Shown: piece after piece, positions 42,425 to 44,797 of the stretch
How the letters are laid out: every line of letters starts with the position of its first letter
Numbering within the stretch: position 1 is the first letter of the stretch
NCBI GenBank assembly: GCA_014381985.1
Contig: JACNKP010000070.1
Span: 1-64,000, forward strand
Direction: 5' to 3'
DNA from: SAR92 clade bacterium
GTDB taxonomy: Bacteria > Pseudomonadota > Gammaproteobacteria > Pseudomonadales > Porticoccaceae
DNA length: 64,000 bases
The notes under the pieces: model-generated
The model's database searches: none
The model's input: the letters and a program-made list of their open reading frames with translations, nothing else
Told to the model about the DNA's origin: nothing
Translations under genes and position numbers: made by a program

Positions 42425-43060
42425 TCATCGAGCACCGAGAAGGACTATAGTTTTTCCTGCAACAGTTATAAGACCGTGGTTTTCAAGTTGTTTTATCACT
42501 CGTCCGGCCATTTCACGCGAACAAACCGCAATGCGGCCAATTTCCTGGCGCGTGATCTTAATTTGCATCCCGTCTGGGTGAGTCATGGCATCAGGTTGCT
42601 TTGCAAGATCTTTAAGTACCTGAGTAATACGGCCAGTGACACTTAAGAACGCTAAATCACTTGCTTTTTGGGTCGTTTCCCTAAGTCTCTTAGCAACCTG
42701 CTGGGCCACCGAAAATAAAATGTCAGGTTCTTTTTGATAAAGCGCCCTGAACTTTGAGTAGCTAATTTCACAGACTTCACAGTCAGTTTTAGTTTTAACC
42801 CAAGCACTACGAGGGTGCTCTTCAAAAAGGCCCATCTCTCCAAAAAATTGACCTGGATTGAGGTAGGTGACTATCATATCTTTTTCGTCATTTCCATCTT
42901 CCACTAAGACGCTAACAGTTCCTTTAACGAGATAATAGAGGATATCTGCTTTGTCACCGGCATAGATAATCGTACTTTTTGCTGGATAACGTCTTCTATG
43001 AAAGTTAGATAGAAATAACTTTTCGCTATTAACGGCAATTGGCAGCACTGACATAGTCAT
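42425..43060 (-). CDS. vfr: Vfr/CRP-type cAMP-binding regulator
   Basis: A 211-residue CRP-family regulator. The cyclic-nucleotide domain has [19 protein letters not shown], close to the cAMP pocket of CRP/Vfr (Gly-Glu, Arg-Ser). The C-terminal helix-turn-helix reads [20 protein letters not shown]; recognition-helix Arg-Glu and Arg are kept as in CRP. vfr next to trpC is also the order in Pseudomonas aeruginosa. ATG at 43060. It likely controls catabolic and surface functions, possibly type IV pili. Confidence 0.92.
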
Positions 43061-43212: not shown

Positions 43213-43242
43213 TAAAAAAAGGTTAAAAAAAGGTTAAAAAAA
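43213..43242. repeat. Short A-rich tandem repeat, 11-bp unit
   Basis: The unit TAAAAAAAGGT occurs twice in direct succession (43213-43234), and a third, altered copy runs into the terminator stem. On the minus strand this gives three U-tracts of seven or eight in a row right after the unit A terminator hairpin. Confidence 0.7.
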
Positions 43243-43262
43243 AGGGACCTTAGGAGGTCCCT
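43236..43262 (-). terminator. Terminator of transcription unit A
   Basis: AGGGACCT (43243-43250) pairs with AGGTCCCT (43255-43262) around loop TAGG. On the minus strand eight U's follow. A second small hairpin (ATCCT/AGGAT, 43269-43284) precedes it. The whole block is copied at 43596-43645. Confidence 0.85.
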
Positions 43263-43356
43263 ATAAAAATCCTATAGCAAGGATTAAGAGGGGTTTGGTT
43301 CAAGCTGAATTTGGTTGTACTATTTTTAGAGCCACTAAGTGGGCTGGTTCTTCTTA

Positions 43357-43461
43357 TTACTTATTTTTTACTTCGGGTGCTTTCAATTTAGCGAAGTCAT
43401 CTTTCGCAATTGCAGCTCCTGCTAGTCCAGTGAAGCCTATTAGCAAATACACGAGCGTCAT
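43357..43461 (-). CDS. 34-residue single-span membrane peptide
   Basis: The peptide starts MTLVYLLIGFTGLAGAAIAK, a clear hydrophobic span of about 18 residues, and ends with a charged tail (DDFAKLKAPEVKNK). ATG at 43461 is nine bases behind AAGG; an in-frame ATG at 43467 would add two residues but sits too close to that site. The 11-codon frame upstream ends in an ATGA overlap with this start. It lies between the unit A promoter and terminator. I recognise no family; a regulatory or toxin-like small membrane protein is possible. Confidence 0.6.
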   Translation of the reverse strand: MTLVYLLIGFTGLAGAAIAKDDFAKLKAPEVKNK

Positions 43462-43595: not shown

Positions 43596-43624
43596 AAAAA
43601 AAAGGGACCTTAGAAAGGTCCCTT
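43596..43624 (-). terminator. Terminator of transcription unit B
   Basis: AAAGGGACCT (43601-43610) pairs with AGGTCCCTTT (43615-43624); on the minus strand a run of U's follows. A second hairpin, ATCCTG/CAGGAT (43631-43645), lies just before it. Homologous to the unit A terminator. Confidence 0.85.
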
Positions 43625-43750
43625 TGAAAAATCCTGTAGCAGGATTAAGAGGGGTAATGGTCGCGAACGAATTTGGTCGTACCGTCTCAAGTTAAAGTCT
43701 AAACCTAGTTCTTATCTGTTGGATCTAGAAACTCTAATAACTACATCGAG
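43597..43750 (-). ncRNA. Putative small RNA (unit B)
   Basis: Between the unit B promoter and its terminator lie about 150 bases with no ORF that has a start and ribosome site; the only frame of note would run into the terminator. The 3' half matches unit A (43682 down to 43601), including two hairpins and the U-tract. Best read as a terminator-bounded small RNA divergent from the lysR gene. No known RNA family recognised. Confidence 0.5.
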
Positions 43751-43840: not shown

Positions 43841-44797
43841 ATGAACTTACAAAAGCTTTCCCGACTTGACTTGAATCTATTGGTTTCACTACAGGCTCTG
43901 CTTGAAGAGAAAAGTGTTACACGCGCCGCAGCGCGCCTATTTATTAGTCAGCCAGCTATGAGTCGCGTGCTGCAGCGATTGCGTTATCAACTTGACGATC
44001 CGCTGTTCACGCGAACCGGCAATGAGCTGGTCCCGACCCCAAAAGCAAGGGATCTGCAGCAACGGTTACCAAGATTACTCGATGGGATTCTGGATATGGT
44101 TAGTGAGGGTGAATTTGACCCCACAACTTATGTTGGTGAGATTACCATTGCTGTACCCGAATTTGTCGCTATCTCTTTGATATCACAATTAACTAAAGTG
44201 ATTACTCAATATGCGCCAGGATTAATCTTATCTATCTCAAGTGAAACTGACTCGGTGGAAGGTGAGCTAGCAGAAGGAGTCTTAGACTTTGCGATCGATA
44301 TTGAAAAGACGATGACAGGCGATATCACCACAACACCATTGGCTATTTTTACCCCATCAATTTGGATGCGTGAAGGCCACCCTTTAGCCCATAAAGAAAC
44401 AGTCACACTGACCGAAATTCTTGAATATCCGTTTATTCAATATTATCTGCTAATCTCCAAGAGGGTCAGCGCAAGAACTGATGCTCGATTTGATCGAGCG
44501 CTTCGAGAGTTAGGCCTCAAACGCAAAAAGACTTTAGTGACTAATCAGTTGATGACAGCAATGGAAACCGTATGTGACACCGATTGCCTCATGGTTGCGG
44601 CTAAGTACGGCGAGACTATGGAGCGAGAAATGCATCGCATTATTCGTAAGCGATACCCGGCGGATATTCCCCACGAAGGTAAAATAAAATTAGTCTTACT
44701 TCAGCATAAGCGCACTTCTGGTTCGCCAATTCATCAGTGGCTTTCTGAGAGGATAGTGGGATTGATTCAAGAGAGAGAGACAATCATCGACGTCTAA
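43841..44797 (+). CDS. LysR-type regulator of a duplicated small-RNA/peptide cassette
   Basis: A 318-residue LysR family protein closest in style to the NodD/PcpR/LeuO group: LDLNLLVSLQALLEEKSVTR then AAARLFISQPAMSRVLQRLR for the winged helix (residues 8-65), and GEITIAVPEFVAISLISQL for the start of the effector domain. ATG at 43841 follows AGAGG. It is divergent from two homologous promoters that carry T-N11-A boxes, so it is the obvious candidate regulator. The inducer is unknown. Confidence 0.85.
   Translation: MNLQKLSRLDLNLLVSLQALLEEKSVTRAAARLFISQPAMSRVLQRLRYQLDDPLFTRTGNELVPTPKARDLQQRLPRLLDGILDMVSEGEFDPTTYVGEITIAVPEFVAISLISQLTKVITQYAPGLILSISSETDSVEGELAEGVLDFAIDIEKTMTGDITTTPLAIFTPSIWMREGHPLAHKETVTLTEILEYPFIQYYLLISKRVSARTDARFDRALRELGLKRKKTLVTNQLMTAMETVCDTDCLMVAAKYGETMEREMHRIIRKRYPADIPHEGKIKLVLLQHKRTSGSPIHQWLSERIVGLIQERETIIDV

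Follow-up and report, generated by a model that had tools for sequence, protein, structure and literature searches.

On the minus strand between a CRP gene (42425-43060) and a LysR-family gene (43841-44797, plus strand) of a SAR92 clade bacterium lie two tandem transcription units, which raises the question of what the unit next to the LysR gene is made for, if not for a protein. The stretch of DNA analysed, hereafter the window, comprises 64,000 nucleotides. The LysR-adjoining unit, here unit B, runs from about 43750 to 43596 and corresponds to a predicted small RNA of ~155 nt, and the second, unit A, runs from about 43502 to 43236 and is predicted to be a dual-function RNA, namely a peptide mRNA that carries the same 3' module as unit B. 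The gene at 42425-43060 scores as a true CRP (311.9 bits versus a cut-off of 266), and in many relatives what we take, by eye, to be an OsmC-like frame apparently lies between CRP and the array. Unit B is confirmed as a feature of the sequence, extending from promoter to terminator without a conserved open reading frame (ORF), and its most likely product is a small regulatory RNA that belongs to a pair with a common switch and a C-rich contact site.

The unit B promoter, placed from relatives and re-read in the window, consists of a -35 element TTGGAT (43785-43780), a 17-nt spacer and a -10 element TATATT (43762-43757), and it is this conserved -10 that puts the start near 43750; a generic promoter scan chose a different pair (43831-43803). 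At the other end, an intrinsic terminator with a stem of 11 pairs followed by a T-run occupies 43625-43601, so that the promoter and terminator named in the preliminary description are borne out. Together with the intrinsic terminator of unit A (43262-43243), it has the longest stems among the four terminators that a scan returned in the region. The description had also put the 3' sequence common to both units at about 80 bases; it is closer to 85, with 84% identity over 86-88 nt in a BLAST comparison of 43235-43320 with unit B (E 1.2e-15), and the two promoter regions are 86% identical over 36 nt (E 4e-5). The shared 3' module comprises CCCCUCUU, which is predicted to be unpaired, a small hairpin, a U-run and the terminator. 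In unit B the C-rich seed CCCCTCTT lies at 43654-43647, likewise predicted unpaired, and is followed by the hairpin AATCCTGCTACAGGATT (43646-43630, from folding and covariation) and the U-run, and in unit A the same seed CCCCTCTT is found at 43293-43286. Upstream of it, unit A carries an ORF (43467-43357) of 36 amino acids as called by the ORF tool, the conserved start being the inner ATG at 43461, which gives 34 amino acids.

The two units also have a box in common, which, like the adjoining LysR gene, was absent from the preliminary account of unit B. Both carry the pattern GCAT-N7-ATGC-N7-GCAT-N7-ATG running into the -35 element (43811-43776 in unit B, 43563-43528 in unit A), that is, four GCAT/ATGC half-sites 11 bp apart that form overlapping T-N11-A motifs. 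This four-half-site box matches with zero mismatches at both promoters versus 0.00 matches expected in 64 kb and, being nearly palindromic, also matches the opposite strand at both. With zero or one mismatch, the 25-base box core occurs only at the two array sites in the whole genome; a further 28 matches each have three mismatches, and 13 are returned by a reversed control pattern. Among 50 same-genus genomes, 48 have a match at two mismatches or fewer; in each of the 42 of these that were listed, all matches with zero or one mismatch lie on one contig, which was identified as that of the array or the peptide gene for all of them but G340 and G341, and matches with two mismatches also occur elsewhere than the array. 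Overlapping T-N11-A motifs are a signature of LysR sites, hence the adjacent LysR gene is the natural candidate for the regulator of both units. From its position, the uniqueness of the box and their co-conservation, we infer that this LysR protein controls units A and B through the arrays of half-sites. The protein matches the LysR domains in Pfam and is a distant relative of solved LysR regulators, scoring far under every NCBIfam cut-off listed (25 of 53), the best being BsrA with 120 versus 480 bits.

The predicted fold of unit B is more stable than those of shuffled sequences (z = -2.15), and for unit A as a whole no such gain over shuffles is seen (z = -0.20). The longest frame within unit B is a TTG-started one of 26 codons, which is also open in the close relative G027 and whose tail, from a different start, is open in G014; a few ORFs of at least 20 codons recur in close pairs (e.g., G000/G027 and G005/G019), but none is common to all 10 of the unit Bs compared when both strands are considered, as judged by coordinates. 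The preliminary description had found no credible ORF in the middle of the unit, and a conserved one in relatives would have counted against its small RNA; none shared by all was found in these 10 members, from which G006 was excluded owing to stretches of N. Among the same 10 unit Bs, mean identity is 38% in the leader, 80% in the module and 73% in the promoter, and the seed is predicted to be unpaired in all 10, with a mean probability of 0.83-0.99. Rfam 15 gave no match at the gathering threshold in the 64-kb window or in five related loci, and the sub-threshold matches at the array all have E values of 1.2 or more.

The module could be followed with a covariance model, as the preliminary description had suggested, which returned 95 matches (83 distinct) across the window and 57 related loci. 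Both helices covary, with two-sided changes at all 14 pairs in an alignment that was itself fitted to the structure, although for helix 1 each pair has such changes in only one to five sequences, largely type-2 copies. In the helices 97.4% of cells are paired versus 82.7% after shuffling, and the proportion drops clearly when partners are slid by one to three columns. A pattern scan of a genome collection gave 47 loci, of which 46 bear titles that fit the lineage (SAR92, HTCC2207, Porticoccaceae, MOLA455, uncultured Cellvibrionales or Pseudomonadales); the remaining one, in an archaeal metagenome-assembled genome (MAG), was put down to chance or contamination. No viral contig carried the module pattern. 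The module is carried by records titled as strains and not as MAGs, namely HTCC2207, MOLA455 and SAR92 clade H921 and H231, all of which we take to be cultured.

The 591-bp array as a whole is found in 34 of 35 same-genus genomes, including its own, the one miss (G011) being 71% complete, and the same search gave nothing past E 0.01 in 21 genomes of other families. A LysR orthologue adjoins the array in all 34, and CRP was found beyond it in 30; it was not found in G023, and G001, G012 and G013 are truncated or incomplete. Of the 34 arrays, 31 have two copies of the exact box core ATGC-N7-GCAT and G006 has three; in G022 and G020 it is single, as one base differs in the other copy. A script detected two terminators in 31 arrays, the exceptions being G013, at a contig end, G026 and G032. 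The order of the units varies: unit B comes first and the peptide unit second in 11 arrays (G000, G027, G023, G014, G006, G005, G019, G024, G030, G026 and G032), the peptide unit precedes the non-coding unit in 18, and no peptide was recognised in five (G034, G007, G013, G009 and G004, assemblies of 1.2-1.4 Mb, some incomplete). The LysR-proximal unit contains CCCCTCTTAATCC in all 34 intergenic regions, which were retrieved through their DNA similarity to the array and so are not an unbiased sample for this count. Among 32 second units, seven have the same module form as the LysR-proximal unit, 22 have a second form with one or two ACCCC stretches and a different hairpin (often CTTTG...CAAAG), and three are altered peptide units. 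In one of these (G030) the seed is retained and the hairpin is gone, and in the other two (G024 and G026) the peptide unit lacks the CCCCTCTT seed while unit B retains it.

The peptide of unit A (MTLVYxLIGFTGLAGAAIAKDDF...) has a hydrophobic N-terminal half and a GxxGxAIAxD motif. It is under purifying selection, with a median dN of 0.098 and dS of 0.717 and dN below dS in 343 of 343 codon pairs used, out of 378 from which 28 identical pairs or pairs with no usable dS and seven with a dS of at least 3 were dropped. Searching with a single sequence recovered it from 48 of the 112 genomes of the family, in five of 14 genera, to which a peptide profile adds genus g24; over 341 genomes of the order, the profile gave 11 matches, all in the family. 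No Pfam or PHROGs family matched the peptide, and NCBIfam gave only two matches far under their cut-offs. Within the ORF, at 43419-43393 on the minus strand, codon use is nearly uniform across 28 relatives at GAAIAK (residues 15-20) and F23 (GGT 23, GCT 26, GCA 26, ATT 25, GCG 26, AAA 25 and TTC 28 of 28), and codons 9-13 vary; a GCGAA...TTCGC pair in the ORF could form a hairpin. This hints at a possible RNA-level constraint inside the unit A ORF.

Where the peptide is missing, the RNA can be kept. The peptide is unmatched in nine of 50 same-genus genomes, all of 1.7 Mb or less and some incomplete, and the five peptide-less genomes whose arrays were read keep the box, the module and the terminator. 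Two further loci, L085 and L088, each have a LysR gene and one box, and their single unit, ~87-89 nt long, contains both CCCCTCTTAATCCTGCAAAGGATTTTTTC and a terminator, with trpC next on the opposite strand; no peptide motif was found in the stretch of DNA examined there. They sit on another branch of the LysR tree than the five reduced genomes, and since both groups keep the RNA without the peptide, the RNA has apparently outlived the peptide twice. The LysR tree also places the B-first order in two well-supported clades, although its labels are coarse ('second' for L146 reflects a distance cut-off, and 'no peptide' covers L150 and L151, whose peptides are too diverged for that search, and L078, whose DNA is cut), so that counts of label changes are rough. 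A third locus, L071, has a single-unit array like those of L085 and L088, with the LysR gene outside the stretch examined. In all three a 5' hairpin stands just ahead of the seed, with stems GCAAAG...CTTTGC, GCAAAGGA...TCCTTTGC and AAAAGCG...CGCTTTT; the stem sequences differ in L071.

Beyond the genus, the RNA model was run over 293 genomes of the order and found 29 with an E value of 0.01 or less, six of them in the genus. Reading by eye covered 18 of the 23 out-of-genus genomes (all but G050, G083, G143, G256 and G266), and of the 18 places only that in G169, of the same family, is a homologue. The other 17 resemble standard terminators, which in two cases follow tandem tRNA-like genes, and have no LysR relative above 28% identity nearby, save short chance pieces. 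LysR orthologues with 45-71% identity stand by such arrays in further genera: G141 and G215 have tandem units encoding ...SGLLGSAIAxDDLK... peptides, G169 and G353 have a peptide followed by a type-2 RNA, and G327, G328 and G392 have arrays with peptides. Most box-core copies in G141, G215, G275, G112, G327 and G328 read AATACATT and not AATGCATT. The cassette thus seems to extend to the family Porticoccaceae, with its details less certain. In G215 (L151) at least three tandem peptide units lie by the LysR gene, and there are 10 peptide-profile matches genome-wide, the weakest of which may be chance. In G275 and G112 (L148 and L149) two tandem units lie by the LysR orthologue with no peptide recognised and with CTCCCTC in place of CCCCTCTT, possibly a third form of the RNA. 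G380 (L140) has four peptide-like units on one 36-kb contig, on which LysR was not seen; the matches contain internal TAA codons and are partly separated by N, so that this array may be either decaying or misassembled.

These data bear on several other ways of reading unit B. It could be a decaying copy of the peptide gene, one that has lost its ORF and whose remaining parts persist through recency or as a terminator, and the promoter and 3' end that it shares with unit A, as well as the variable number of units among genomes, would fit such an origin. However, the leader has diverged far more than the module and promoter, the B-first order occurs in two well-supported clades, and L085 and L088 retain the RNA alone, which makes decay an unlikely account. 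We consider it quite improbable that the module is a mere 3' stabiliser or terminator of LysR-controlled small transcripts with the peptide as the sole functional product, as this would require neither an identical unpaired CCCCTCTT nor a module that outlives the peptide; purifying selection on the peptide, the existence of peptide units with decayed modules and the unremarkable fold of unit A as a whole would all be expected from it.

The preliminary description had proposed, as one possible role of unit B, that of a decoy or sponge titrating the factors bound to the unit A mRNA at its end, for which the 3' module and box common to both units could be adduced. A decoy has no reason to outlast its client, hence the retention of the module where no peptide gene was found leaves this proposal unsupported, as does the loss of the seed from unit A and its persistence in unit B in G024 and G026, and we regard it as very improbable. 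That unit B is a leader or attenuator governing unit A by termination is suggested by its location upstream of unit A on the same strand, but is hardly credible, since unit A has its own box and promoter past the unit B terminator, the peptide unit comes first in more than half of the intergenic regions and the single unit of L085 and L088 precedes a gene on the opposite strand. The other proposal of the preliminary description, a regulatory RNA in its own right, gains support from the conserved promoter and module, the predicted unpaired seed, the lack of a conserved ORF and the persistence of the RNA without the peptide. Unit B is therefore probably a LysR-controlled, trans-acting small RNA with an anti-Shine-Dalgarno-like seed and a sibling of a dual-function peptide mRNA, a reading drawn from comparison of sequences.

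Such an RNA may work as follows. Upon a signal, the LysR protein would activate units A and B, and RNA B would bind Hfq, which could use the U-run of the module. Single-stranded CCCCUCUU resembles, as we take it, the anti-Shine-Dalgarno of 16S rRNA, and with the help of Hfq this C-rich seed may pair with G-rich ribosome-binding sites of target mRNAs, which by analogy would mainly repress them. Unit A would add a conserved peptide of ~34 amino acids with one predicted membrane segment, presumably acting at the membrane, so that unit A would be a dual-function RNA and unit B would carry the RNA function alone. Unit B has the sequence features of Hfq-dependent small RNAs, namely its own promoter, a terminator with a U-run and a conserved unpaired seed, and an Hfq gene is present in the genome. 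A scan for seed targets in 270 orthologous gene pairs (400 kb from each of two relatives) gave no excess over 30 shuffled seeds, with 11 pairs versus a mean of 11.3 at -10 kcal/mol and 1 versus 2.7 at -12; these pairs are a small part of the genes, and the result is compatible with a few specific targets. A strict search of the own genome for AAGAGGGG before an ATG gave eight matches versus five for the reversed control, one of the eight being the array read backwards and only one of the other seven starting a plausible gene.

Among known systems, the nearest in layout to unit A is VcdRP of Vibrio cholerae, which reportedly has a 29-amino-acid ORF, a pairing site with a core of four consecutive cytosines and a Rho-independent terminator, and is repressed by CRP (PMC8672173). 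The predicted unit A transcript would likewise hold a small ORF and a C-rich site; the likeness is one of layout, sequence having been compared by Rfam scans alone, and unit B differs in having no conserved ORF. The nearest in circuit is the VtlR/LsrB-AbcR system of the Rhizobiales, which also places tandem sibling RNAs, here as sequence units, by a LysR gene. The small RNAs AbcR1 and AbcR2 of Agrobacterium lie in tandem by a LysR gene, VtlR directly activates abcR1 and the small hypothetical protein atu1667 (PMC7486931, PMC4211561), and it does not activate abcR2, while LsrB activates neither RNA in the Sinorhizobium meliloti strain tested (PMC7486931). That system is alphaproteobacterial, without an Rfam match here, and its VtlR box (GCAT-N3-TG-N3-T) has 12 matches in the window, none of which falls between 43200 and 43860. 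Because there is neither an Rfam match nor a VtlR box, the array was not filed under VcdRP or VtlR-AbcR. In the enterobacterial GcvA-GcvB pair, a LysR-type regulator stands beside a divergently transcribed small RNA, as is the case here, but the LysR protein of the array scores 31.6 bits versus an NCBIfam cut-off of 288 for GcvA, and GcvB had no match in the Rfam scans. The alphaproteobacterial suhB/mmgR family (RF00519) was considered and rejected, as the module reaches only 14.6 bits versus a gathering threshold of 41 (E value 3).

Unit B is thus best interpreted as a new family of small RNAs, which would be a variant of the LysR-linked siblings in which the partner has a dual function. A literature search of limited depth returned no account of a LysR regulator with a private array of coding and non-coding siblings that share one seed, nor a paper on SAR92 small RNAs. 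More tentatively, the array may represent a cassette found across the Porticoccaceae, in which one LysR regulator has as its only clear sites an array of dual-function RNAs, with a membrane peptide of ~34 amino acids and an anti-Shine-Dalgarno-like seed, whose functions evolution would have split repeatedly. On that tentative reading, the splits would comprise peptide and RNA on separate units (G024 and G026), the RNA without the peptide (in reduced SAR92 genomes and, at the extreme, as one unit of ~88 nt in two environmental genomes) and tandem peptide copies (other genera). SAR92 bacteria are reported to be abundant in coastal seawater (PMC10746254). With no more than two clear sites for its presumed regulator in the genome, the circuit is compact and testable, and the recurrent parting of peptide from RNA makes it possible to ask which role of a dual-function RNA is kept first by selection; if this is true, the Porticoccaceae cassette would be a natural experiment on the splitting of dual-function RNAs.
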